From a virus, in the IMG/VR virus record IMGVR_UViG_3300044858_000988, positions 1 to 22,204 of that record: a DNA stretch of 22,204 nt, one strand, 5' to 3'. Each line of letters starts with the position of its first letter. Position 1 is the stretch's first letter. Shown one piece after another: positions 2,130 through 17,471 of the stretch. The position numbers and the translations under genes were made by a program. A model generated the notes under the pieces. The model worked only from the letters and a program-made list of their open reading frames with translations. It was not told the DNA's origin and made no database searches.

Positions 2130-2263
2130 TTCGACGCCTTTCTCAACCAAGCCCTGATCGCCAGCTCTGCGAGAGCGTGCAGCTTCAGGCCTGTAACCTT
2201 GGAGTGATGCTTGAGCATTTCGTGCGTTTCCTTGGAGATGTTCAGTGTCTTTGTTTTACTCAT
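2126..2263 (-). CDS. Ribbon-helix-helix-like small DNA-binding protein, 45 aa
   Basis: A 45-residue gene starting at the ATG that overlaps the endolysin stop (ATGA). The sequence reads as one strand (TKTLNIS), helix (KETHEMLKHHSKVTG) and helix (LHALAELAIRAWLRKA), the Arc/CopG ribbon-helix-helix plan. Such proteins bind operators as dimers, so it may regulate phage or host genes. No operator is seen nearby. The longer upstream frame is rejected because its Arg-rich N-terminus is the shadow of the endolysin gene. Its stop overlaps the resolvase GTG. Confidence 0.7.
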   Translation of the reverse strand: MSKTKTLNISKETHEMLKHHSKVTGLKLHALAELAIRAWLRKASK

Positions 2264-2592
2264 TTGAGATACTTCTTCACCTTCGCCCAGTAGGCCTCGG
2301 TGGCCTGCTTCCTGTCGCCAGACGGGCCACCGTTCCACCTCCTGGCGAGCTGCTCGGTGCTGGCGCCGCGGCCGTAGTGCTTCAGGTAGGCCTCGCACAC
2401 CGCCCGAGCCTGCGCCCTGTTGGTCATGTCTTGGTGCCGGTAGTGGCTGCCGGTGATCCGGTTGACGTCGAGCACCACCCCTCGGTGGATCTGCAGTGGG
2501 CCGATGGCGCGTCCGTTGTCGCCTACTGCCATGTCGTTGCCGGAGCTTTCGACGATGATCAGAGCGCTGATGAGGTTTGAGATGGTGGTCAT
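2260..2592 (-). CDS. Endolysin candidate, lytic transglycosylase-like, 110 aa
   Basis: Probable muralytic enzyme. The core matches the SLT or lysozyme-like fold: LIIVESSGND with the likely catalytic glutamate at residue 15, then GDNGRAIGPLQI at 24-35, a helical middle, and RRWNGGPSGD at 84-93. It is short but holds the main motifs. The ATG at 2592 has an A/C-rich leader (AACAATCTCCAAACC). An upstream GTG at 2679 would add a Pro/Arg-rich 29-residue stretch that looks like non-coding shadow. No signal peptide is seen, so export would depend on a holin, perhaps the one near 12.5 kb. A virion-associated enzyme is the alternative. Confidence 0.78.
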   Translation of the reverse strand: MTTISNLISALIIVESSGNDMAVGDNGRAIGPLQIHRGVVLDVNRITGSHYRHQDMTNRAQARAVCEAYLKHYGRGASTEQLARRWNGGPSGDRKQATEAYWAKVKKYLK

Positions 2593-2673
2593 GGTTTGGA
2601 GATTGTTGCGCGTTGTTGAACCAGTCGCGCCCCTGGTGCCGGACTTCCTCACCGGCGGGATGGGCGGTTTATG

Positions 2674-2689
2674 GGGCACCGCCGTGCCC
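2674..2689 (-). other. Tight hairpin between hypothetical gene and endolysin
   Basis: GGGCAC at 2674-2679 and GTGCCC at 2684-2689 form a perfect six-base-pair stem with a four-base loop. It sits ten bases downstream of the stop at 2699 and has no T-tract, so a terminator is doubtful. It buries the GTG at 2679 that would give a longer endolysin, which supports use of the ATG at 2592. A role in RNA stability or translation of the endolysin is possible. Confidence 0.35.
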
Positions 2690-3060: not shown

Positions 3061-5862
3061 TCAGGATGCGAGCTCATTCGGAAGTCGCAGATCGACGTAC
3101 CGGATGGTTTCGTATCGCTGCTCGTTGGCAACGGTGTCGAAGTAGCTCGAGACTTGGCGCCGCTCGCCGTCGGTGAAGTTGCGCAGGGTATCGTACCCGG
3201 TCGGCAGCACCGGCACGGCCTCATTCGGCTGGCCGTTCTCGGTGTCGAAGTTCCACGCGGTGAAGCCCTGGCTGTCGGAATAGGCGGCCAGATTGATGGC
3301 CGGGACGTACCAGTAATCGTTCCCGCCGGCATCCTGGTCACGGTAGCAGACCACGCCATTTGCGATCAGGAGATCGTAGGCCTGCTCCGAGATGTAGAAC
3401 GACGGGATGGTGCCGCCAGATTCACGCCCGGACGTCCCCAGCAGCACCATGCCGATGGTCAGCACACCGAGCACCCGGGAAGATCCGGTGGCGTCGTACA
3501 GCGGGCAGGATGACATCCCCAAGCACAGCGGCACAGCCCTCGTCCAAGCCCGCACCGACCATTCCAGAAGATTCCAGAGCCATGGCGACTTCGGGATCTT
3601 GTGGAAGAACGGTCCACCGCCGGGCAGGTAAGGATTGCCGACTGGGTTGTAAGGCAGATCGAACCCGACCTGCTCGACGCCACCTGTCCAGCAAATGTGC
3701 GTCATGTTATCTCGGTACGGCGGCGAGTAGGTCGACGACTTAAACGGCACGCTCGAGGCGAACGAGGCGCCACGGCGGTCCTTAAAGATATCGTCCCGCT
3801 GCGCCGGCACCAGGTCGACAAAAGAGCTGTTGTCGGCTGTCGGTATGTAGGCGTACTGCTGCGTTCTGTTGGGGCTGCCCGGGATCCGCACCGAGGCGTC
3901 GATGCCGCCTGGGCCGCCCCACTTGTTCAGCCAGAAGTCACCGCCCCAAGGCCTCGCATCGACGCCACCACCTGAGGCCATGTCGATGTCATAGGCTCTA
4001 ACCTGCTCGAAGTCATAAACAGAGCTGGAGAAGCCCCAAGGGCCGCCTGCCGGGATGAAGGCCGTGTTGACTGCAGGAACGCCTGCGGTCTGCACCGGGC
4101 ACAGTGTCGGCATGACGTTGGCCCATTGTTGGCTGACAGATGTGCCGGCAACCTGCAGATAAAAGATTCTGGTGCCGGAAGTGTACCGGGTATTGAACCA
4201 CGGGCCGACTCCGAAACCGATAGGCCTGTCGGCAATGTAGAGGCTCTGATTGTCGGCTGTGGTCTCGAAATTATTCAGGGTGCTGCCACCGATGCCACCG
4301 GCTGTGGCTGCACGGCACATCAGGCCGAGCGGTGTCATCGTAACAACCGATACCTTCTCCTCCACGATATCGACCACATCGTCGTAATTGTTCAGGAAGC
4401 CAACCTCGACGCCAATTCGGCGCCTTAGATCGCGCATGGTGTCGAAGATTGTGGCCTCGTTTCCAGCGGCCCAGTTGAAAATGCCGGATCCGTTGATCGG
4501 TGAAACCTCGGTGCTGTATTGCACCGGGTAGACCGTCGAAATCGTCTTTACGTTCGCATCTATTTCCCAAAAAGGATCGGCCGCTGTCGTAAAGATGTTC
4601 GCGTCGATAGGATAGATGCGAATGACGCCACGCTGCGTGGTGACCTGCATCCCGGTGGCCGTGACGTTCACGTCGATGCCTAGATCGCGCAGCCGATCGA
4701 CCAAGCTCGTCGTGCCATTAAAAACCCGGATCTGATCGGAGACGACATCCCCGGCCGCGTTGCTGAACGTCACACGGGCACGGCCCCAAGTGAACACGGC
4801 GTCCCCGATGGTTGTGTTGGCATTGCTCGGATCGGCGTATGATCCCGAGTAAACCTGCCGAATGTCATACGGGATGAACGGGTCATGGATTGTGACCATC
4901 GTCCGGCGCCACTCAAACAGAATGAACGGGTTGGCCACGTTGTTGGCCTGGGCGGATCGCTCGAGGCTAAGGAACTCCGACTGCGTGGCGGTGTCGGACC
5001 ATGACGGCGGCCCCTCGGCGAGGAACGGGATGTCGCCGGTGAAGTACGGGAAGAAGTAGCGGCAGAAGGTTCCACCCGGGAAGGTCACCGCCCAGGTGCC
5101 GTCGGGCTTGCGCCGGAAAGCCCTGCAAGAGCCCGCGGAAACGAACTGGCGGTCTGCGCTGCCATCGGGCAGTTGCAAGAACACCACGGCCGATCTGGTG
5201 CCGCAGTTGTGCACCCTCCAGCAGTCGTAGCGCTGGTATGTGCGCAAGATCCTGAACTCGTAGATGCCTTCGAGCGCAATCTCAGCAACGGCCAGCCGGT
5301 GCTTGTGGATCCGGCCAGGAGGCAGTGTCGGGTCAATGCCGGCGCCGAGGCTGCCGCGGACATAGGACGTCAGGCCCGAGGTCGACGGCGGATCCCATCC
5401 GAGATGCACGTCGTACTGGATCCCGGCCACCTCGCGCTTCAGCAGCTCGAAGCTGTAGTGGATATCGGCGACGTCACAGGTGAACGGATCGCCACCGGCC
5501 ACCCAGTGGTCGACGTAGGCCTGCCCGCCTTCGACGTCGAGGTGCTTGGTCTCGAGCTTCGACAGCTCGACCTGTGTCTGCACCTGGTTGTGGTTGTCCC
5601 GCCAGTTGTAGCCGATTCCGGGTATGTACGGCAGCGGCGATTCACCACCGTCCCGCAGACGTTTGCAGGTGTCTGGGTCGTTGCGGTAGACGTACCAGAC
5701 GCCGTATGGATATTTCCCCTCCCATGCACCGGATGCGGAGCTGGCGAACAACGGGCTTTTGCCGTTGAGCACCCGGTGGCATTTCTGGTCGAAACGGGAA
5801 TAAAGGCTGTTCAGGTTCGACGCCGTGAACATCTTCTCCCGCTTGTCTACGGCGAAAGGCAT
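3061..5862 (-). CDS. Large tail protein of 933 aa, tip or receptor-binding candidate
   Basis: The largest gene of the window and the last of the tail module, where receptor-binding or central tip proteins lie. Residues 1-300 are rich in Tyr, Trp and Cys (YPYGVWYVYRND, YDCWRVHNCGTRS). Residues 320-480 contain strands and DPFIPYDIRQVYSGSYADP. The region around 640-770 has Gly/Pro/Trp-rich loops (WGGDFWLNKWGGPGG). The C-terminus reads VPAINLAAYSDSQG and ends RYVDLRLPNELAS. I see no lambda J, peptidase or glycosidase signature. The neighbouring gene is separated by a rare A/T-rich gap. The assignment as a tail protein rests on size, place and composition. Confidence 0.65.
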   Translation of the reverse strand: MPFAVDKREKMFTASNLNSLYSRFDQKCHRVLNGKSPLFASSASGAWEGKYPYGVWYVYRNDPDTCKRLRDGGESPLPYIPGIGYNWRDNHNQVQTQVELSKLETKHLDVEGGQAYVDHWVAGGDPFTCDVADIHYSFELLKREVAGIQYDVHLGWDPPSTSGLTSYVRGSLGAGIDPTLPPGRIHKHRLAVAEIALEGIYEFRILRTYQRYDCWRVHNCGTRSAVVFLQLPDGSADRQFVSAGSCRAFRRKPDGTWAVTFPGGTFCRYFFPYFTGDIPFLAEGPPSWSDTATQSEFLSLERSAQANNVANPFILFEWRRTMVTIHDPFIPYDIRQVYSGSYADPSNANTTIGDAVFTWGRARVTFSNAAGDVVSDQIRVFNGTTSLVDRLRDLGIDVNVTATGMQVTTQRGVIRIYPIDANIFTTAADPFWEIDANVKTISTVYPVQYSTEVSPINGSGIFNWAAGNEATIFDTMRDLRRRIGVEVGFLNNYDDVVDIVEEKVSVVTMTPLGLMCRAATAGGIGGSTLNNFETTADNQSLYIADRPIGFGVGPWFNTRYTSGTRIFYLQVAGTSVSQQWANVMPTLCPVQTAGVPAVNTAFIPAGGPWGFSSSVYDFEQVRAYDIDMASGGGVDARPWGGDFWLNKWGGPGGIDASVRIPGSPNRTQQYAYIPTADNSSFVDLVPAQRDDIFKDRRGASFASSVPFKSSTYSPPYRDNMTHICWTGGVEQVGFDLPYNPVGNPYLPGGGPFFHKIPKSPWLWNLLEWSVRAWTRAVPLCLGMSSCPLYDATGSSRVLGVLTIGMVLLGTSGRESGGTIPSFYISEQAYDLLIANGVVCYRDQDAGGNDYWYVPAINLAAYSDSQGFTAWNFDTENGQPNEAVPVLPTGYDTLRNFTDGERRQVSSYFDTVANEQRYETIRYVDLRLPNELAS

Positions 5863-5871
5863 GGCGTCGGA

Positions 5872-6081
5872 TCAGTAGAACCAGGATTCCTCGGACGTCT
5901 GCGTGATCTGGGCCACCGGGTTGAGCTTCAGCACGGTGCCATTTGCGTTCTGCTCGACCCGTTGCCCGGGCCCGGCCACAAGCTGCACCTTGCGCACAGC
6001 CTCGATGAGCTGATTGATCGCCCGAGCATGGTCCGCTTTAAGACCACGCTCGGACAATTTGGCTGGGAGCTGTATCGGCAT
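5872..6081 (-). CDS. Small tail module protein, 69 aa
   Basis: A 69-residue protein. Residues 10-36 form a helix (SERGLKADHARAINQLIEAV). A short glycine-containing turn follows (AGPGQRVEQNANG), then strands LKLNPVAQITQ and the ending SEESWFY. Similar small proteins with a helix and an aromatic C-terminus precede large tail proteins in many phages and may act as linkers or chaperones. I cannot name the family. It starts four bases after the stop of paralogue B. Confidence 0.55.
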   Translation of the reverse strand: MPIQLPAKLSERGLKADHARAINQLIEAVRKVQLVAGPGQRVEQNANGTVLKLNPVAQITQTSEESWFY

Positions 6082-6085
6082 GGCC

Positions 6086-6442
6086 TTAGATCTCGCAGAA
6101 CTGCGCGAAGATCTTCACCGGGCTGTTCGATGCCTTGACGTACATGGTGGCATCTACCCACGGGATCAGGATGAACTGACCGGCAGGAATCTGGAAGCTG
6201 TACGGCGAGGAAGGCCCGATTGAGACCGAGTTGACCAGATCGAGGTTGACCACCAGGAGGCGGTATGGCGTGGCCAGATCCGCGGTGAGATCCAAGGTCT
6301 CGTCGGTGGTGCCGACGTCCTGCGTCTGTTGCCCCATGTCCCGGCCGGTCATGTTGGCGATGCAAGTGTACACCTGCGGGTTGATCGAGGCGCCGCCCTT
6401 GGCAGCGTACAGCCTCGCCGACATCTCGACTTCGTTGGCCAT
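6086..6442 (-). CDS. Tail module protein, paralogue B, 118 aa
   Basis: Tandem paralogue of the gene just upstream, with the same length, the same ends (MANEVEMSARLYA and FCEI) and the same IPAG-LIP core. Twelve bases separate the two genes, and the leader CTAACCAACCAACACC is again A/C-rich. Divergence at about half the residues implies an old duplication, so the two may form a hetero-oligomer or present different surfaces. Function is unknown and a tail tip or adhesion role is inferred from neighbours. Confidence 0.65.
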   Translation of the reverse strand: MANEVEMSARLYAAKGGASINPQVYTCIANMTGRDMGQQTQDVGTTDETLDLTADLATPYRLLVVNLDLVNSVSIGPSSPYSFQIPAGQFILIPWVDATMYVKASNSPVKIFAQFCEI

Positions 6443-6454
6443 GGTGTTGGTTGG

Positions 6455-6814
6455 TTAGATCTCGCAGAATGTGGCCTGAATGGTCACCGATGAAGTGTCG
6501 GCCTTCAGGTAGAGCGTGGCGCTGACATACGGGATCAGCATGGTCTCACCAGCCGGGATCCGCATCGTGTAGGTGCCAGAGACGAACCCAGCCTCGACGA
6601 AGTTCGTCGAATCAAGGTTGCTGATCAGCAGCTTGTAGGGGCTGGAGACATCGACGGGCACGTCGAGGGCCTCGACGGTGATGCCGATAAGCTGGGTCTG
6701 GCTGCCCATGTCGGTGCCGACCATGGTGGCGGTTTTGGTGTAGGTGACCGAGGGGAGATACGCACCGTTTTTAGAGGCGTACAGCCGGGCCGTCATTTGA
6801 ATCTCGTCTGCCAT
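6455..6814 (-). CDS. Tail module protein, paralogue A, 119 aa
   Basis: A beta-rich 119-residue protein and the first of two tandem paralogues. Shared anchors with the next gene are ARLYA-K at residues 9-15, DMG-QTQ near 35-40, a PY-LL--NLD block, IPAG---LIP near 86-95 and the identical ending FCEI. By ungapped eye alignment about half the positions match. There is no enzymatic motif. The compact strands suggest a small virion building block such as a tip or fibre-base subunit. The leader is long and A/C-rich (CCTCAACCAACATCCGCACACCTT). Confidence 0.65.
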   Translation of the reverse strand: MADEIQMTARLYASKNGAYLPSVTYTKTATMVGTDMGSQTQLIGITVEALDVPVDVSSPYKLLISNLDSTNFVEAGFVSGTYTMRIPAGETMLIPYVSATLYLKADTSSVTIQATFCEI

Positions 6815-6838
6815 AAGGTGTGCGGATGTTGGTTGAGG

Positions 6839-7663
6839 TTAGATGAAAGGATAGATGAGCAGATCCCAAGGCGCGAACGTCCAGGATATGACCTGCTCGA
6901 CCTGGTTGGTCTTCACCACGAGGCTTGTCGAATAGTTCGTTTGCTTCCAGCCCCACGCGGTTCCCACCGGGGTCTGTGCAGGATCAGCCGGCGGCACGGG
7001 AAGCATCGACTGAATTGAAAACAGGTTGAAGGCCTGAACGAACGAAAAGTAGGAATAGACCGGAGGCACGCCGCTGGGCACCTGTGGAAGCCCATTGTTG
7101 CCTGAGAACGTCGCCACCCGGGTAAGGCCGACACGGGCCACCGGGTAGGAATCTTCGCCGCGGGTCAGCTTGCGCCATACCTGCTGCGCGATTGGAAAGG
7201 TGTTTATGTTGCTCTCTGGAGCACCCGGTAGGGCTTCGCCGTTCTTGACCGCGGTCTCGATCAGGAACTTGTAGAGGCTCGGATTGCCGGTGCTGTTGGC
7301 CTCGGCGACAACCTGTGGGAGCGCAAATATCGACTGGTCGAGATAGTCTGTGCGGAACTCGTAGCGGATGTCCGGAGCCTCCTGGCCAGCGGCAGGCGTG
7401 TAGGCGGTGTTGATCGGATCACCGGGATCGGTCGACTCACCGGAATAGATGACGGTGGCCTCCGAGTAGGGGCCGTCCTCGTTGATGGTGACCTTGGCGC
7501 CGGAGTTGATCCATTGAACCGAGGCCAGGCGCAGAGCATCCTTGCTGCCACGATAGAGGAACGTCCAGATCGGCCCGGTGCCGGATCCGGAGTTGTTGAA
7601 CTGCCTCGAAACCTCGATGTACTCGAAGTTGTTGGGATTCGGGATGCCTTGGATCGTGGCCAT
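6839..7663 (-). CDS. Distal tail protein of unknown family, 274 aa
   Basis: First gene after the tape measure, where distal tail (Dit) or tip proteins are normally found. The 274 residues are beta-rich with aromatic patches: IEVSRQFNN, GPIWTFLYRGS, VVKTNQVEQVISWTFAPWDL. It shows neither the Dit N-terminal pattern nor a lambda M/L signature that I can identify. Neighbours suggest a tail tip role. The start ATG is three bases after the tape measure stop. Confidence 0.6.
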   Translation of the reverse strand: MATIQGIPNPNNFEYIEVSRQFNNSGSGTGPIWTFLYRGSKDALRLASVQWINSGAKVTINEDGPYSEATVIYSGESTDPGDPINTAYTPAAGQEAPDIRYEFRTDYLDQSIFALPQVVAEANSTGNPSLYKFLIETAVKNGEALPGAPESNINTFPIAQQVWRKLTRGEDSYPVARVGLTRVATFSGNNGLPQVPSGVPPVYSYFSFVQAFNLFSIQSMLPVPPADPAQTPVGTAWGWKQTNYSTSLVVKTNQVEQVISWTFAPWDLLIYPFI

Positions 7664-7665
7664 GA

Positions 7666-8658
7666 TCAGAGTCCGGAGATGGCGCTGGCTGTCTTGCCGG
7701 TGTTGCGGTTGATGGCCTTCATCTCAGAGACTTGAGCCTTGGATTGGTTCAGGAAGTCCTGCACCCACTTCGGCTGCATCGTAGTGTCTGCCAATTTTCG
7801 ACGGGAATCAATGGTGCCAAGTTTTCCGGTAGTCGAAAGTGGCAATGCCTCGAAGCGCTTGTTTGCTTCCTCAGGCGAAGCGAATGCCTCCTGCAGCGCA
7901 GCCTTGACGATAGAACCTTTGCCGCCGAGCTGCTGCATGATGCCTTGAAGGCCGTCTGCAACGCCTTTTTCATCGGCGATTGCTCGTTCCAGAGCGTCGG
8001 CGAAGAAGGTCATGGTCGGAACCGCTGAGACAACCATCTGCCGCTGAATCTCGTCGAAGCGGTCGGCAAGCTGCCCCAAGGCGTCGATCTGATCCTTGCT
8101 GATCAGGTCGATGGGGCCGAGTTCGTTAATCTTCGAGATGGCGCCGGCAGCCTTGAAGGCCTTCTCGCCGAGCAGATCCATGATGGCGGCCTGAGTCTGT
8201 GCGCTCTTGCCCGATGCTAGATGGGCCTGCCCCATCTTCGTGATCAGCTCGATGTTCGACAGGCTCTTGTCGTTCAGTTCTGCCACCGAGAACCCCAAGG
8301 CCTTAAAGTAATCTCGAGCGGGTCCGCCCTCCTCGATGGCCTTCAGGCGCTCCTGGCTAACCTTGGTGATGGCCTTGGCCATGGTCTCGAACGAGACTCC
8401 GGTCTGGCTGGCCAGAACCTGCAGGCGCTGCACGTCGTCGGTGCTGATGTTAAGCTGCTCCGACAGGTCACCGATGGCGTCGGCCGTTTGAACCACCTTG
8501 GCGGCGAATGCGGTCACCGCGGCCACCGACATGGCGGCACCAAGCTGGGCGCCCACCGATGACCTGAACTTGCCGGTCAGGCTTGTGGCCCGCTTGAGTC
8601 CGGTCTCAAAGGTCGAGCCATCAAGGCCGAGCTTGGCGATGAGCGAGAAGATAGCCAT
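7666..8658 (-). CDS. Tail tape measure protein, short, 330 aa
   Basis: Sets tail length. The protein is almost wholly helical, with repeated Ala/Gln/Lys-rich segments. It opens with the tape-measure-like LIAKLGLDGSTFETGLKRA, has a hydrophobic stretch at residues 36-57, and then TADAIGDLSEQLNISTDDVQ and VSFETMAKAI, as in the N-terminal domain of many tape measures. At 330 residues it is short. Using the known relation of about 0.15 nm per residue, the tail would be near 50 nm. No lysozyme or peptidase domain is present. It follows the chaperone candidate with no gap. Confidence 0.8.
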   Translation of the reverse strand: MAIFSLIAKLGLDGSTFETGLKRATSLTGKFRSSVGAQLGAAMSVAAVTAFAAKVVQTADAIGDLSEQLNISTDDVQRLQVLASQTGVSFETMAKAITKVSQERLKAIEEGGPARDYFKALGFSVAELNDKSLSNIELITKMGQAHLASGKSAQTQAAIMDLLGEKAFKAAGAISKINELGPIDLISKDQIDALGQLADRFDEIQRQMVVSAVPTMTFFADALERAIADEKGVADGLQGIMQQLGGKGSIVKAALQEAFASPEEANKRFEALPLSTTGKLGTIDSRRKLADTTMQPKWVQDFLNQSKAQVSEMKAINRNTGKTASAISGL

Positions 8659-9222
8659 TCAGTTGCGTATCGGGTGTTCCTGAGCGTAACGCCAGAGTGC
8701 CTCGTTCCTATCGTTCCACAGCTCGACACGGCCTTCCATCTCAGCGTGGGTCAGGAACAGGCGCTCGGCGTCGATCACCGGCATCGACAGCACATCCTGA
8801 TCGTTGAACCCGATGGATACAAGGCCCACCAATATGCGCTCAGGCCACGGCATGGCCGGTGTCTTCGACCGGCTGCCTGGCGCCTGCAGCACCTCGGGGC
8901 AATCTGACTGGTCGGTCAGCCATTGCTGCATCGTGGCGCATTCGGCCGCCAGGTTGGCCTTGCTGACACGGGATCGCATCAGGCGCAGCGGTATCCACCC
9001 GTGGATGGATCGCATTGCCTTGATGGACTCACCGGGCTCTTGGGAGCAGATGACGGCAGCCTCGACCAAATCCTGAGCGGTAGCGTCCCCTCCTACAACG
9101 AATGGAGAACCCATCCGGTGCAGGAGAATGGCGTGGCCGACCGTGAAAGGCGCCATCCGGATGCCGAGCACCATCGGGGGCGTCTTCGCGGTGGCCGTCA
9201 GGATGTCGGCTAGGCCGATCAC
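8659..9222 (-). CDS. Tail assembly chaperone candidate with GTG start, 187 aa
   Basis: The gene lies immediately before the tape measure, where lambda has G/GT, the chaperone that coats the tape measure during tail assembly. I place the start at GTG 9222, which overlaps the tube gene stop as GTGA. The open frame extends to 9411, but that part is Arg/His-rich shadow sequence. The protein begins IGLADILTATAKTPPMVLGI and is largely helical, with no membrane segment. No programmed frameshift product is apparent: the tape measure ATG follows the TGA directly (TGAATG). The role is inferred from position. Confidence 0.6.
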   Translation of the reverse strand: MIGLADILTATAKTPPMVLGIRMAPFTVGHAILLHRMGSPFVVGGDATAQDLVEAAVICSQEPGESIKAMRSIHGWIPLRLMRSRVSKANLAAECATMQQWLTDQSDCPEVLQAPGSRSKTPAMPWPERILVGLVSIGFNDQDVLSMPVIDAERLFLTHAEMEGRVELWNDRNEALWRYAQEHPIRN

Positions 9223-9695
9223 AGGTTGGTGGCGGCGCCCGAGGCGGTCAGATTGGTGTAGCGCTTCAGCGTGATAGTGCCGGTAGCCTTGCCGGTCTGG
9301 GTGGTCTTGATCGAGCCACCGCCGGCGTAGATCCAACGGTTGCCGGTGGCAGCGTTGATGGCATCGGCATAACCACCGATTTCGATCACGGGAGCGCCAG
9401 TGATCACGCAAGTGCCGTTGACATCCGGAAGGCTGGCCGCCAAGAGGGCATTGGCAGCGCTGGCGCCGCTCGGGATGAAATTGAGTGTCAGCGTCAGGCG
9501 GTTGTTGTAGCCAATGTGGCCAACAACCTCTCCGGAGCTGTTGCGCACCTCTTCGGTGTCAGCCTCGTGCGTGATGTCGTAGCTCTCGACGTCGGGTGCG
9601 ACGTAGCCTGTGACAACCAGGTTCCCCGCGGCGTCATAGAGCGCCATCGAGGCCGGTGATCCGAAAACGTATTTGCTGCCTTGAGTGTTAGCCAT
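9219..9695 (-). CDS. Major tail (tube) protein candidate
   Basis: A 158-residue protein, Gly/Ala/Thr-rich with alternating beta-strands (RLTLTLNFIPSG, GTITLKRYTN). Residues 30-62 read VAPDVESYDITHEADTEEVR and RNSSGEVVGHI, the kind of strand and loop seen in tube proteins of siphophages. It lies between the terminator and chaperone candidates and the tape measure, as expected. The ATG at 9695 has an A/C-rich leader (TGTAACACATCACT). Its stop overlaps the GTG start of the next gene (GTGA). Confidence 0.62.
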   Translation of the reverse strand: MANTQGSKYVFGSPASMALYDAAGNLVVTGYVAPDVESYDITHEADTEEVRNSSGEVVGHIGYNNRLTLTLNFIPSGASAANALLAASLPDVNGTCVITGAPVIEIGGYADAINAATGNRWIYAGGGSIKTTQTGKATGTITLKRYTNLTASGAATNL

Positions 9696-10981: not shown

Positions 10982-11433
10982 TTGGTCTTCGCCCCTAGAT
11001 CAAGGCTGTAATAGGCGCCTGAAGCGTCCACGCGGCACGATAGGATGCGCAGCGTGCGGCCTTGGTACATCAGCGTTCGCCCGACCACCGGCCGAGGTTT
11101 GCAGAACGTCAAAGCGATGCGGTCGGTGTTCTCCAGGAGAACGAACCCGGAGTCCTCACGCTGCAGCCTCGAGAAGGTCGTGCCCTGGTCGAGCGTGTAC
11201 AGCGTCGAGTCCATGGAGACGAGCGTGCTATCGCAGGTCTTCCAGTCGCTGAACATGACCAGGATCCGGGATGTCACGTTGTCCTGGAACCCGCCGGCCA
11301 CCGGGGTGTTGGCATCGGTGACCGCGGCCGGGATGCACCGGATCGACGAGCCCTCCCAGATGAACATCGGCGCCCCGAGCATCTGCTGGAGCACCGTCAT
11401 GCCCTGCTGGAGACTGGATCCGATGGTGGTCAT
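10978..11433 (-). CDS. Head-closure (head-tail joining) candidate, 151 aa
   Basis: A 151-residue beta-rich protein at the place where siphophages encode the connector that closes the head after packaging. Residues 1-25 are helical, residues 80-100 contain LQREDSGFVLLEN, and the end (GRTLMYQGRTLRILSC) looks like the final strands of a small beta-barrel. The call rests on gene order, because the tail-completion, terminator and tube candidates follow in the standard sequence. The LxxED block is shared with the small protein at 14601-14831, which may reflect a common ancestor or convergent strands. Confidence 0.5.
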   Translation of the reverse strand: MTTIGSSLQQGMTVLQQMLGAPMFIWEGSSIRCIPAAVTDANTPVAGGFQDNVTSRILVMFSDWKTCDSTLVSMDSTLYTLDQGTTFSRLQREDSGFVLLENTDRIALTFCKPRPVVGRTLMYQGRTLRILSCRVDASGAYYSLDLGAKTK

Positions 11434-11933
11434 CAGCAGGTGAAGTAAACGCCCGACACAAGGATCCGGCTTGTGGCCTGCAGTTGAGCGGCCAGGCTCG
11501 AGATGTCGCCGGTTTCGTAGTGGCTGAGTTGGCAGTAGGACGTGCCGCCGACCACCTTTCCGATCACCGCGGTCTTGGCCTGCGTGGTGGCATTATCGAG
11601 CCAGATCGAAACCGCGGCGTCATAGGTCGACGCATCGGGCAGGCTCAGGCGCAGTTCGCCGGTGGCGCTGCCGGTCACCGAGTTGATCGTCAGATCCGCG
11701 GTGAAGGTGGTGACGAACCCGATGGACGTGTGCCGAGCGGTATTGATGGTGAAAGCGAACGTCCGGCCGCCACCTGAGTCGGTCAGCGTCGGCACCCAGG
11801 TCGACGGCGCTACAAGCGGGAGCGCGGCGTAGATCTCGTCGAAGTTGTCGTTGATCTTCTGGCCGGCGCCCCGGAGCGTGTCGCCGGTGTTGTCGTTGGC
11901 GATGGCGCCGATGTTGATGGTTTGCTGGGCCAT
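11433..11933 (-). CDS. Short fibre-like virion protein, 166 aa
   Basis: The N-terminus (INIGAIANDNTGDTLRGAGQ, then KINDNFDEIY) matches a common attachment module of phage tail fibre and neck proteins. Residues 40-165 are beta-rich with many Thr, Ser and Gly, and end in SRILVSGVYFTC with a terminal cysteine. No enzymatic motif is seen. It could be a short side fibre or a neck appendage. It follows the lipoprotein gene and overlaps the head-closure candidate by one base (TGATG). Confidence 0.6.
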   Translation of the reverse strand: MAQQTINIGAIANDNTGDTLRGAGQKINDNFDEIYAALPLVAPSTWVPTLTDSGGGRTFAFTINTARHTSIGFVTTFTADLTINSVTGSATGELRLSLPDASTYDAAVSIWLDNATTQAKTAVIGKVVGGTSYCQLSHYETGDISSLAAQLQATSRILVSGVYFTC

Positions 11934-12164: not shown

Positions 12165-12520
12165 GCGTTTGATCCTTCGGGTCGAGAATACGGTTGAGCG
12201 CCGCAGTCGTCATTCCCTGCGCCACGCTGGCTACTGGGTCCATGTTTGAGAAGTTTGGCGTGAAACACAGCGGCCCAGGCGAAAACGCCGGCAAGGCCGC
12301 AGTTGAGCATGACCTCGCTCGGTGGCGGTGTCGATAGGGTCAGGCAGTTGAAGAGCGCCCCGGAGGCCGTCAGCGTCAACGAAAGGCGAAGCAGCAGGCT
12401 GCCTGTCATCGGCCAGCGTCTGACCACTCCGTCGGTGCGGTAGAGCATCACCATGAAAGCAGAGACGCCAGCGGTGAGGATAGCGCTGGCGACTGCATTC
12501 ACGATAGTGAGCGGATTCAT
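12161..12520 (-). CDS. Three-segment membrane protein of the lysis cluster, 119 aa
   Basis: Residues 5-27, 41-61 and 70-90 are hydrophobic enough to span the membrane, separated by a basic loop (YRTDGVVRRWP). The last 28 residues are polar and probably disordered. I do not recognise the family. It overlaps the holin candidate upstream and the lipoprotein downstream by ATGA. A second holin or an antiholin is the simplest contextual reading. Codon use and GC content match the neighbours. Confidence 0.6.
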   Translation of the reverse strand: MNPLTIVNAVASAILTAGVSAFMVMLYRTDGVVRRWPMTGSLLLRLSLTLTASGALFNCLTLSTPPPSEVMLNCGLAGVFAWAAVFHAKLLKHGPSSQRGAGNDDCGAQPYSRPEGSNA

Positions 12521-12795
12521 TTCCTCTTAAATCTGTCGATGACGAACTCGACGCCGTGAAGCCCGAGGAAACCCATGATGAACGCGGCAGCGTATTGGGT
12601 GTTGCTGTCCTGCATATTGAAGAACTTAACCACTACCGGGGTGAGGTAGTTGGCCGAGAGGGTGCCTGCGAGGAGCGAGGTCAACGTGGTGAACCAGTTC
12701 TTGTGACCGTCCTTCTTCACGTTGACCAAGCTCCCTGCAAAGCCTGCGACGAGTAGGCCGATGTTGATGCCGATATCGCGCAGGTGGTCTTTCAT
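12517..12795 (-). CDS. Putative holin, 92 aa
   Basis: Predicted inner-membrane protein with three hydrophobic segments at about residues 9-25, 34-57 and 67-84, a short charged N-terminus and a basic C-terminus (DRFKRK). Size, segment number and basic tail fit phage holins, which open the membrane to trigger lysis. The motif SANYLTPVVVKFF in the second segment is distinctive. It overlaps the small membrane gene before it and the membrane gene after it by four bases each. The endolysin candidate is about 10 kb away, at 2260-2592. Confidence 0.6.
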   Translation of the reverse strand: MKDHLRDIGINIGLLVAGFAGSLVNVKKDGHKNWFTTLTSLLAGTLSANYLTPVVVKFFNMQDSNTQYAAAFIMGFLGLHGVEFVIDRFKRK

Positions 12796-13505: not shown

Positions 13506-14597
13506 TCAGTTGGCAGCAACCCAAGAACCGCCGCTGTAAAAGTACAGCTTGTTGTTTGTGGTATCGACAACCAAAGGAACTCTACCAGTCTGAGAGGTAG
13601 GAGTTCCGGTAGGAGTACCAGCGCAACCGGGGATGTAGAGGAAACCGTCAGTCGCAGTAGTCGCAACCGCAGCAGCACCAAGCACCAAGCTGCCAGCGGC
13701 AGAAAGCGTCATCGCTTGGGTGAATGTGATGGCATTGCCAGCGGTGCCGCTGGCGGCAATTAGCCACTGATGCGATGCGTCCACCAATCGGTACTGTGCC
13801 GCTGGCTGGCTGACCGCATATTTCCAAACAATGCCAGCTGAATATGTGGCATAGCTATTATTCGAAAACCATGAGTTTGGCGAACCAGTAAGCACGCTCT
13901 TGGCACCAGTAAAACCCTGTCCAACCCGCCCAATTTCAAGTGCTTGATAATACGTTGAATCCGTCGCACTCGGCGTAACCCCCACGCCCAGCCCCGTGGA
14001 GTTGAGGGTCATGGCGGTGCCAGCGACTCCGCCGACGTTCGACCAAGTGGCTACGCCGTCGGAAGCGATGCTGTAGCGTTCAGTGCCAGTGACTGTCGTG
14101 CTGTTTGCAGCAGTGTAAAAACCAATCGAAGTTGCTGCATTACCTCCAGAAAACCCACCACCAACATAAAGATAATTGTTGGTTGATGTAGCGTAACTTC
14201 CGACAACAGAAACAGGCTCCTCGGCGTTGGTGTAATGCCTAGAGCTGACAGTTCCTTCCTTAGCGGTTGCGTCGGTGTTGTTAGTTTGAAGAACCAACTG
14301 CAATCCAGCCGAACCTTGAACGTGTAGCTTGTATCCGGGGGTGGCTAGACCAACACCAACCCGATCATTCGCCGAATCCACCTTCAGGGTCGAGGTATCC
14401 ACCGTCAGATCGCCGGTGATCGTGGCGGAGGCGAGGGTGGCGGAAGGTGAACAAGCGAGGATGTTGTTGATGCTGATTCGCTTGGTCGTACCGGATGCCG
14501 CCATCGACGTATCGGACACGTCGACAATCGGCATCATGTCGTTTGCGGGATCGGCCGTAGTTAGGGCCGTCAGTGCTGTAATCTTAGAGTCTGCCAT
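13506..14597 (-). CDS. Fibre-like virion protein, 363 aa
   Basis: The N-terminal 50 residues (SKITALTALTTADPANDMMP) are of the type that attaches phage fibres to the particle. They are followed by Ser/Thr/Ala-rich repeats, including RVGVGLATPGYKLHV at about residues 80-94 and LGVGVTPSATD near 202-212. The C-terminus has the VPLVVDTTNNKLYFYSGGSW block common in phage fibres. No coiled coil or chaperone domain is evident. It lies between the capsid and neck genes rather than after the tape measure, so it could be a head or collar fibre. By eye the coding sequence looks more A/T-rich than its neighbours, which is compatible with exchange from another phage. Confidence 0.7.
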   Translation of the reverse strand: MADSKITALTALTTADPANDMMPIVDVSDTSMAASGTTKRISINNILACSPSATLASATITGDLTVDTSTLKVDSANDRVGVGLATPGYKLHVQGSAGLQLVLQTNNTDATAKEGTVSSRHYTNAEEPVSVVGSYATSTNNYLYVGGGFSGGNAATSIGFYTAANSTTVTGTERYSIASDGVATWSNVGGVAGTAMTLNSTGLGVGVTPSATDSTYYQALEIGRVGQGFTGAKSVLTGSPNSWFSNNSYATYSAGIVWKYAVSQPAAQYRLVDASHQWLIAASGTAGNAITFTQAMTLSAAGSLVLGAAAVATTATDGFLYIPGCAGTPTGTPTSQTGRVPLVVDTTNNKLYFYSGGSWVAAN

Positions 14598-15335: not shown

Positions 15336-16484
15336 TTAGGCGGTGACGAGAACCTCGGCCTGCGTGGTGTCCGCGGCAGCGGCGCCGAACATGATGTCGT
15401 AGGACGCCATGTGGCTGCGGCTCGCCCGGCTGTACCAGACCGACAACAAGCAGCTCAGGCCGTTGTTGGTGGTGACCGTGCGCTGCTCGATGAACTCGCC
15501 GGCGATCATTCCGACCGGGAGACCGGCGGCGATGGCGATGGAATCCGGGCCGCACACAAAACCAACAGCGTTGGTCTCGGCCGAGGTCCAGCGGTTGTTC
15601 TCGGCGATCACGTCGAACCCGAACCGGCCGTTGGCGAGCTGGTCGAACCGGCCATCGGGGAAGTAGTTCGCGGCGCCCGAGAACTGCAGGCGGGCCAGGT
15701 GGCCACCGTCGAGGATCAGGTTCTTCGAGCGGTAGTTCTTGGCGAGCGCCAGGATCGCAGGCAGATCCGAGGTGTCGAAGTTCGCGGCCGTGCCGATAGC
15801 GGTGGCGGCGCCGTAGTTGCCGGAGACCATCAGAGCGGTCAGCACGTCGCTGATGCCGTAGGCGAACAGGTCAGCGGAACCCGCGGCCAGGTCGGCCAGG
15901 CTGAAGCCCTGGTTGAGCTCGGCCTGAGTCACGGTAAAGTTCTTCGAGATCTGGTTCACGGTCACCGAGGTGGCCGCCAGCGTGCTGTCGTTGTTGGTCT
16001 CCCAGGAGGTCGGGTTGGTCTGGGCCGCGGTGCCGGTGGTGTACTTCTTCACCTGCACGGTGGCGCGGGGGCGCAAGTTGTCCAGGCCGACGTTGCGGCT
16101 GAACGCGGAGACCAAGGCAAGCCGGTTGGCGGCCACGGTGATCACGGCGTCGGCGAGGTAGTCGACCACCAGGCCCGAGGCGAACGTGTTGGCGTTCTGC
16201 GGGGCGTGAATGGCGCTCTGGCGCAACAGCTCGCTGTGGTTCTGGATCAGCCACGAGCGGCGATCAGCACCGGCCTGCAGCTTCTTGTGGGCCTCGAGCA
16301 GCGGGTTGCCGAGGTTCTCGATGCGGGCCGGGGCGATGGGCTCCGGGGCCGGGGCGGCGGTAGGGGCCTTGGCGCTGATGGCAGCGGCGACGGCCTTGGC
16401 GACGATGCTCTCGATGGACGAGGCATCCAAAGTAGCGGTCGGCGCAGTAGGAGCGGCCGCCACCACGGTGTTGGAATCAGTCAT
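15336..16484 (-). other. Candidate internal start making a separate capsid product
   Basis: The ATG at 16484-16482 lies in frame within the protease-capsid gene at residue 330. The minus-strand leader GCAGACACCACACAAA before it resembles the leader ACTGATCAAACACA of the gene at 15092 and differs from the Ala/Pro-coding GC-rich sequence around it. Starting there would give a 382-residue protein with an Ala/Pro-rich N-terminal region (possible delta or scaffold domain) followed by the capsid fold. This is a prediction from leader similarity and domain border. It parallels the known internal start of lambda C/Nu3, but no Shine-Dalgarno supports it. Confidence 0.4.
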
Positions 16485-17471
16485 TTTGTGTGGTGTCTGC
16501 TGTGATGTCGGCGCGGTTGTCGCGCCATCGACGGCAGCGGGAGTGCTGATCGTCGAAATCTTGTCTTCAGGCTCGGAGAGTTCTTCTTCCTCTTCGATCT
16601 GGGCGGCCAGCGCCTTGAACCAGTCACGGCCGGCGGCACCGCCCCAAAGGTTTGCGGCCACATCGGCCGGGGTGTCGGCTTCGGCATCGAGGAAGCGCTC
16701 ATTGCGCGCCCACCAGGCCACAGCCTTCTTCACCTTCTCAACGCTGGGCTCTTCGCCCTTGGCCAGATTTCGGGCGTCGATCACGGTAGCCTCCTCGAGG
16801 CCGTCGCCACCGAGACCATCCTCGTACTGCCGGATGCCGCGCTCGAGGTTGCGGCGAACGGTCGGAGGCGCCGTCTTGGTCACCGCCCGCGGATGCCAGC
16901 AGGCAGCCATGGCCAGCATCTCGGTCATGCTGTCAGCCAGGCCAAAAGCCACGGCTTCCTGCGCGGTGAACCATGTCTCGGCTGTCATGGCCGCCCGGAT
17001 CTGCGCCACCGGCTTTCCGGTGCGCTTGGAATAGATGCCAGCCAGAACCTCGGCGTGCTGATCCAAGGCTGCGGCCATCTTGCGCATATCGTCGGCCGTA
17101 CCGGCAACCATGCCGGACGGGTCGTGAATCATGAACAGCGCCGCATCGGCGATCTCAACGGTGTCGCCGGCCAGAGCGATGATCGAAGCGATTGAGGCAG
17201 CGATGCCGACCACCCGGGTTGTCACCTGGGCATTACGGCCGCGCAGCATATTGTAGATGGCCAGACCATCCCAGACGTTGCCGCCGGGGCTGTTGATCTC
17301 GACCACCAAAGGGCCAGGGCCCACAGACTGCAGAGCATCGGAGAAGGCCTTGGCCGAAACACCGGAGCCACCGAACCAGTCCTCGCCGATCTGGTCGAAG
17401 ATCTGGATCATGGCGGGCTCAGTCGCCGCCGCTCGGGGCTGGTAGGAAAGCCAGTTTGTGACCTTGGTCAT
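15336..17471 (-). CDS. Fused ClpP-like prohead protease and major capsid protein
   Basis: A single 711-residue frame joins head maturation protease and capsid. Residues 20-185 are a ClpP-type serine protease: SPGGNVWDG at 61-69, nucleophile S93 in GIAASIAS, H116 in MIHDPSG, and ETWFTAQEA-FGLAD at 165-180. Residues 205-290 form a charged helical domain (VAWWARNERF, LWGGAAGRDWF). Residues 291-395 are low in complexity: an acidic EEEEE run, then an Ala/Pro-rich stretch. Residues 400-711 look like an HK97-fold capsid protein. M330 begins MTDSNTVV after an A/C-rich leader (ACACCACACAAA), like leaders of other genes here, so a separate capsid product of 382 residues may be made from 16484. Protease cleavage is the alternative route. 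Confidence 0.88.
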   Translation of the reverse strand: MTKVTNWLSYQPRAAATEPAMIQIFDQIGEDWFGGSGVSAKAFSDALQSVGPGPLVVEINSPGGNVWDGLAIYNMLRGRNAQVTTRVVGIAASIASIIALAGDTVEIADAALFMIHDPSGMVAGTADDMRKMAAALDQHAEVLAGIYSKRTGKPVAQIRAAMTAETWFTAQEAVAFGLADSMTEMLAMAACWHPRAVTKTAPPTVRRNLERGIRQYEDGLGGDGLEEATVIDARNLAKGEEPSVEKVKKAVAWWARNERFLDAEADTPADVAANLWGGAAGRDWFKALAAQIEEEEELSEPEDKISTISTPAAVDGATTAPTSQQTPHKMTDSNTVVAAAPTAPTATLDASSIESIVAKAVAAAISAKAPTAAPAPEPIAPARIENLGNPLLEAHKKLQAGADRRSWLIQNHSELLRQSAIHAPQNANTFASGLVVDYLADAVITVAANRLALVSAFSRNVGLDNLRPRATVQVKKYTTGTAAQTNPTSWETNNDSTLAATSVTVNQISKNFTVTQAELNQGFSLADLAAGSADLFAYGISDVLTALMVSGNYGAATAIGTAANFDTSDLPAILALAKNYRSKNLILDGGHLARLQFSGAANYFPDGRFDQLANGRFGFDVIAENNRWTSAETNAVGFVCGPDSIAIAAGLPVGMIAGEFIEQRTVTTNNGLSCLLSVWYSRASRSHMASYDIMFGAAAADTTQAEVLVTA

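Follow-up and report, generated by a model that had tools for sequence, protein, structure and literature searches.

The baseplate of phage JBD30 is composed of the Dit protein gp49, the upper baseplate protein gp50, the hub gp53, the fibre proteins gp47/48, and the receptor-binding protein gp54. The cryo-electron microscopy (cryo-EM) paper on this phage reports that gp53 and pb3 of phage T5 have a common fold and domain organisation at 13% sequence identity, and its authors propose a hub core common to most siphophages of Gram-negative hosts. In phage Pa193, the ring formed by ripcord-1 gp38 (residues 2-171) sits between the hub and the tube-like ring of gp37. Here we compare with such systems a set of five genes found directly after a short tape measure gene in the 22,204-bp IMG/VR virus record IMGVR_UViG_3300044858_000988, referred to below as the window, whose structural genes run on the minus strand. 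The set is a conserved, unnamed putative tail-tip module found over more than 100 uncultured virus contigs without a cultured relative, and it provides a direct test case for the proposal of a single hub architecture. We conclude that it encodes a divergent, probably reduced siphoviral tip.

The module follows the gene of the 330-residue tape measure protein (TMP; 7666..8658), which matches PHROG tape-measure families (E 7e-13) and has homologues 327-368 residues long. Upstream are g169 (8659..9168), coding for a probable tail assembly chaperone assigned from its position before the TMP gene, and the gene of the 158-residue presumed major tail protein (9219..9695), also assigned by position; neither product has a family match. 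Downstream of the TMP come, in order, genes coding for proteins of 274 (6839..7663), 119 (6455..6814), 118 (6086..6442), 69 (5872..6081) and 933 residues (3061..5862), exactly the lengths and positions given in the initial annotation of this DNA. Gene order from TMP to g933 is kept, with gaps of a few bases, in 100 of the 102 IMG/VR loci with enough sequence downstream of g274, and g933 is present in all 102; the TMP gene and g274 are separated by a median of 8 bases. Median dN/dS values of the five genes lie between 0.03 and 0.13 (0.05 for g69; two usable pairs only for g274), which, together with the recurrent order, shows that they are real genes and not chance open reading frames (ORFs). 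Relatives are abundant in IMG/VR, with 103 confirmed stretches for the 933-residue protein and 136-159 for the 274-residue protein, many of them on contigs of 28-30 kb. The 118- and 119-residue proteins are tandem paralogues (52% identical), look β-rich from their sequences and, together with the 69-residue protein, are among the most conserved of the module (median identity 81-88%; 87% for the 119- and 81% for the 69-residue protein). As to siphovirus morphology, a tape measure is encoded in the window and no sheath family is found among the proteins scanned, though several presumed tail proteins match nothing. In the closest relative of the window, G004, whose terminase is 99% identical, no other gene carries a tail-tip signature, the rest being packaging, head and replication genes, and the five genes are therefore the tip candidates.

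The reading that we favour, with moderate confidence, is that the module builds the distal end of a short non-contractile tail of siphovirus type, with the 274-residue protein as ring and the 933-residue protein as central tip. An AlphaFold2 model of the 274-residue protein based on 53 homologues has a mean predicted local distance difference test (pLDDT) score of 76.5, reaching 85-93 over most of residues 101-274. The VIA structural matches listed for this model fall into two sets. Those to residues 1-85, which include an extra strand-helix-strand domain (residues ~10-80), are mostly to unrelated small α/β domains. The 13 listed for residues 95-270 (Z 3.8-5.4) all have the tail-tube fold and come from the tails of phages or from tail-like injection machines: chains of Pa193, E217, phiCD508 (two), cyanophage A-1(L), AFP (two), two PVC-type systems, the monocin tip, HFTV1, the neck of phage 812, and lambda gpU. 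The best of them is Pa193 chain S (170 residues), whose length fits ripcord-1 gp38. The model, in which the ring fold shows weakly, indicates a probable tail-tube fold in residues 95-270 and suggests that the 274-residue protein is most likely a Dit-type, tube-end ring. The initial annotation held that a clear match of this protein to Dit would speak against a different kind of tip; such a match was obtained in part, as ring proteins of tail-tube fold over the C-terminal two thirds. BFVD matches (E 2e-8) are to unnamed proteins of uncultured phages and add no functional information.

The association of this protein with the tape measure is also visible in co-variation, taken as Spearman correlations of pairwise identities across 67 loci. 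Genes g169, TMP and g274 behave as a cassette (rho 0.78 for g169-TMP, 0.60 for TMP-g274 and 0.63 for g274-g169; Mantel p 0.001 for g274-TMP), while neither g119 (rho 0.14) nor g933 (rho 0.18) follows the TMP. Comparison of the window with G004 reveals a replaced block at 7176-9187 that spans g169, the TMP gene and the first ~160 codons of g274, between flanks of ~88% DNA identity. Inside the block, protein identity is 27% for the TMP, 45% for g169 and 60% for g274; outside it, the value is 99% in the presumed major tail protein and 100% in g119. Cassette behaviour and block exchange fit a 274-residue ring that would contact the tape measure.

The 933-residue protein had been described as rich in aromatic residues and cysteines. 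Its aromatic content is indeed high (12.6%; most other window proteins tested have 4.3-9.2%, the 274-residue protein 12.4%), but its enrichment in cysteine is mild, with 13 residues (1.4%) as compared to 2.1% in the terminase. C214 and C220 are invariant in 38 of 38 homologues and six more cysteines are found in 31-36 of them. Conservation is highest over residues 1-360 (0.63-0.85), then lower and patchy, with a minimum at 781-810 (0.22); the family as a whole is homogeneous in length (876-940 residues) with a mean identity of 65%. Structural matches to residues ~50-269 of its AlphaFold2 model are weak (Z 4.0-6.6), rest partly on unreliable coordinates, and involve StcE-like and tailspike-type domains, the latter from Solidus gp83, CBA120 TSP4 and the Pa223 capsid spike (Z 4.3-5.5); residues 350-440 match FliD-like domains. 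Such matches would suit a surface-exposed tip protein. A match to J/Tal hubs was the second result that the initial annotation named as speaking against a different tip. No Dit, Tal or J chain is among the 50 matches listed, which in so poor a model does not count as absence, and the model would allow either a diverged hub or a new tip fold.

In the arrangement that we favour, the C-terminal two thirds of the 274-residue protein would provide the tail-tube fold of the terminal ring, which would be tied to the TMP and g169. The conserved N-terminal ~360 residues of the 933-residue protein could be fixed below this ring and seal the tube, with the variable part beyond them extending to the cell surface. 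The 118/119-residue paralogues and the 69-residue protein may be small accessory parts between ring and tip. We infer the stoichiometry of this assembly and the role of the 933-residue protein. Tape measures correspond to ~0.15 nm of tail length per residue, from which the 330-residue TMP would specify a tail of ~50 nm. Several results weigh against this assignment. Z values of 4-5 may reflect no more than a common arrangement, and Foldseek found no significant match of the 274-residue model in the PDB (best E 0.03), so that we regard the tail-tube fold as probable, not shown. The coupling of g274 to the TMP gene could in part reflect linkage, though the adjoining g119 does not share it. The 933-residue model (mean pLDDT 50.5, with residues 36-199 under 50) is of too low quality for the protein to be assigned as a hub. 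hhalign gave no match of the module proteins to Dit, hub or tube proteins of lambda, T5, JBD30 and TP901-1, with probabilities of at most 7% throughout against the tip proteins of these phages and of Akkermansia phage Moulinsart; this test is insensitive, because the presumed major tail protein also matched nothing by hhalign.

Sequence searches with the five proteins returned no match in PHROGs, Pfam, NCBIfam, PDB sequences or the 50,697 phage records of INPHARED, a homology search that had been proposed for the 933-residue protein. For the 933- and 274-residue families, 38 and 53 homologues were scanned beside the window proteins. The reported lack of lambda M, L, K, I or J signatures was borne out: no member of the 274-, 118/119- or 933-residue families matches the corresponding PHROGs, none of the 274- or 933-residue families those in Pfam, and none of the window proteins those in NCBIfam. 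The 119-residue protein has no family or PDB match, and no homology was found between the 118/119-residue proteins and the 933-residue one. The 933-residue protein has no relative in GTDB genomes (one representative per species, 84,980 species), nor has the 274-residue protein in 387 Verrucomicrobiota genomes, in a search without a positive control among the genomes. Weak matches to DUF7077 in 2 of 38 members (E 0.002) and to GH2 in 8 of 53 (E 0.017) were discounted as not shared within the families. By sequence, the tip genes are no harder to recognise than the presumed major tail protein and the chaperone-like g169; the lack of homology is thus a property of the whole tail and is by itself no proof of a new tip architecture. 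The initial annotation called the tip a different, possibly undescribed type. Undescribed it is, judging from the phage records searched, but a different type does not follow from absent homology, which in this module appears to reflect mostly sequence divergence.

That other tail genes of this phage are just as unrecognisable favours a canonical tip that has drifted past recognition, in which the 274-residue protein would be Dit, the 933-residue protein a hub of Tal/BHP type that has the customary domains, and the difference from known siphophages one of sequence only. Retention of the fold by JBD30 gp53 and T5 pb3 at 13% identity, in a core proposed to be widespread, is in line with this, and a conserved N-terminal third followed by a variable remainder suits a hub-adhesin. 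However, the better-predicted stretches of the 933-residue model (~341-520 and 801-900) have no hub match, and the matches listed are FliD-like or tailspike-like; we rate this explanation as a serious contender, of nearly even plausibility. The lack of any hub signature in the 38 homologues of the 933-residue protein, together with the resemblance of its residues ~50-269 to tailspike-type domains, could instead denote a tip without canonical hub. The protein would then be a new spike or adhesin attached directly to the 274-residue ring, with ring and small proteins closing the tube. In prophage L274 of Verrucomicrobiota (see below), a short and homologous tape measure gene is followed by only three larger genes, which goes in the same direction. 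Yet most of the region aligned to tailspike-type domains has pLDDT values under 50, neither the top match, 6o38_A (Z 6.6), nor StcE is a phage protein, and nothing follows from a missing hub match when the model is this poor. We consider such a tip unlikely, and quite unlikely the proposition that the module is a siphovirus-type tip in which a tube-fold ring is capped by an unrelated 933-residue protein and small paralogous β proteins. If true, a hub-less tip would break the proposal of one hub core in most siphophages of Gram-negative hosts.

Host recognition might reside elsewhere, in a 363-residue fibre-like protein (13506..14597, minus strand) with a 166-residue protein (11433-11933, in the neck gene region) as its adaptor, leaving a purely structural role to the five genes. 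Homologues of the 363-residue protein vary from 221 to 516 residues and are conserved only over the first ~60-90 (0.71 for the N-terminal 60, then 0.02-0.49), whereas the 933-residue family is far more uniform; its gene, and not g933, is the most variable virion gene seen. The 166-residue protein has a T4 gp9/gp10-like N-terminus (T4_gp9_10_N, Pfam PF07880; PHROG 677) and is a possible fibre adaptor. The location of the 363-residue gene between capsid and neck genes means that it may instead code for a head or neck fibre, and its product as adhesin is compatible with the ring and central tip that we favour. From its variability it is a candidate equal to or better than the 933-residue protein for host-range variation, and an exclusive role is plausible, if somewhat doubtful. 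Finally, the 118-, 119- and 933-residue proteins could be virion components outside the tail, such as head decoration, with genes that lie behind those of the tail by chance. They co-vary with the backbone gene g160 (0.72 for g118, 0.33 for g119, 0.62 for g933) and not with the TMP gene, and none matches a tail family at a useful E-value. Their invariant placement in near-overlap with the tail operon argues against this. It would also leave the genome without any candidate for the tip, and we find it very improbable.

G004 (28.7 kb) begins and ends within the capsid gene or next to it and is therefore nearly complete; beyond the gene set of the window it codes for a primase, a Dda-like helicase, an exonuclease and a RuvC-like resolvase. 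The clade, with genomes of ~29 kb, most likely infects Verrucomicrobiota, a phylum with few cultured phages. Among terminase relatives in genomes, Verrucomicrobiota hold ranks 1-4 (54, 51, 49 and 39% identity), and the terminase of Akkermansia phage Moulinsart (33%) is one of the closest from cultured phages. In one of the Verrucomicrobiota relatives, prophage L274 (3127-8164), a 441-residue TMP with homology to the window TMP (hhalign 95.6%) is followed by genes for 308-, 193- and 638-residue products, the last tail-fibre-like, and by no lambda tip. In L170 (180-3300), small and large terminase genes, the latter 51% identical to that of the window, abut Verrucomicrobial housekeeping genes (RibF, TruB, NusA and IF-2 like by eye) and are followed by no head genes, as in a remnant or partial element. 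A short terminase fragment of 83% identity (L173, 10001-10396) lies at the end of a 23-kb contig assigned to a Gammaproteobacteria bin, which is probably phage DNA put in the wrong bin. Beside the five genes, a 139-residue protein with an SLT transglycosylase domain (2260..2679, minus strand; Pfam PF01464, 23.0 bits against a cutoff of 21.3) is encoded right after the g933 region and may be an endolysin or a tail-tip lytic enzyme. A 92-residue membrane-like protein (12517-12795) has a sub-threshold match to the putative holin family PF16931 (E 0.003). The head, described earlier as lambda-like, has portal and terminase of lambda-type families, but in a 711-residue ORF (15336-17471; partial match to NCBIfam NF045540) the presumed major capsid protein is fused with a ClpP-type head maturation protease, a known arrangement. 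For this clade, the 933- and 363-residue proteins can now be named as candidates for host recognition.

Comparison with known tail tips shows both resemblances and differences. Like the lambda M-L-K-I-J region, the module places several tip genes downstream of the TMP gene in a genome with lambda-type terminase and portal families; it differs in its gene sizes, in having no L, K, I or J signature and no K-like peptidase, and the 274-residue protein, set against M, is its only plausible fold parallel. With Dit and ripcord-type rings (Pa193 gp38, the monocin tip, the lambda gpM type) this protein has in common its position right after the tape measure and the probable tail-tube fold of residues 95-270, but it lacks sequence or profile similarity to them and carries the extra N-terminal domain. 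JBD30 (Casadabanvirus) also has a non-lambda gene set after the tape measure, as do betaproteobacterial prophages with a TMP that resembles the window TMP at its N-terminus; its Dit, however, has two tube-like domains, its hub is defined, and none of the five module proteins matches its tip proteins. Alishewanella phage LSH1 (PMC13243795) has a minimal hub whose gp25 is recognisably gpL/gpJ-like, unlike the 933-residue protein, but it resembles the module in its reduced tip, with a tube-fold Dit bearing an extra N-terminal domain, few genes after it, and the lambda receptor components missing.

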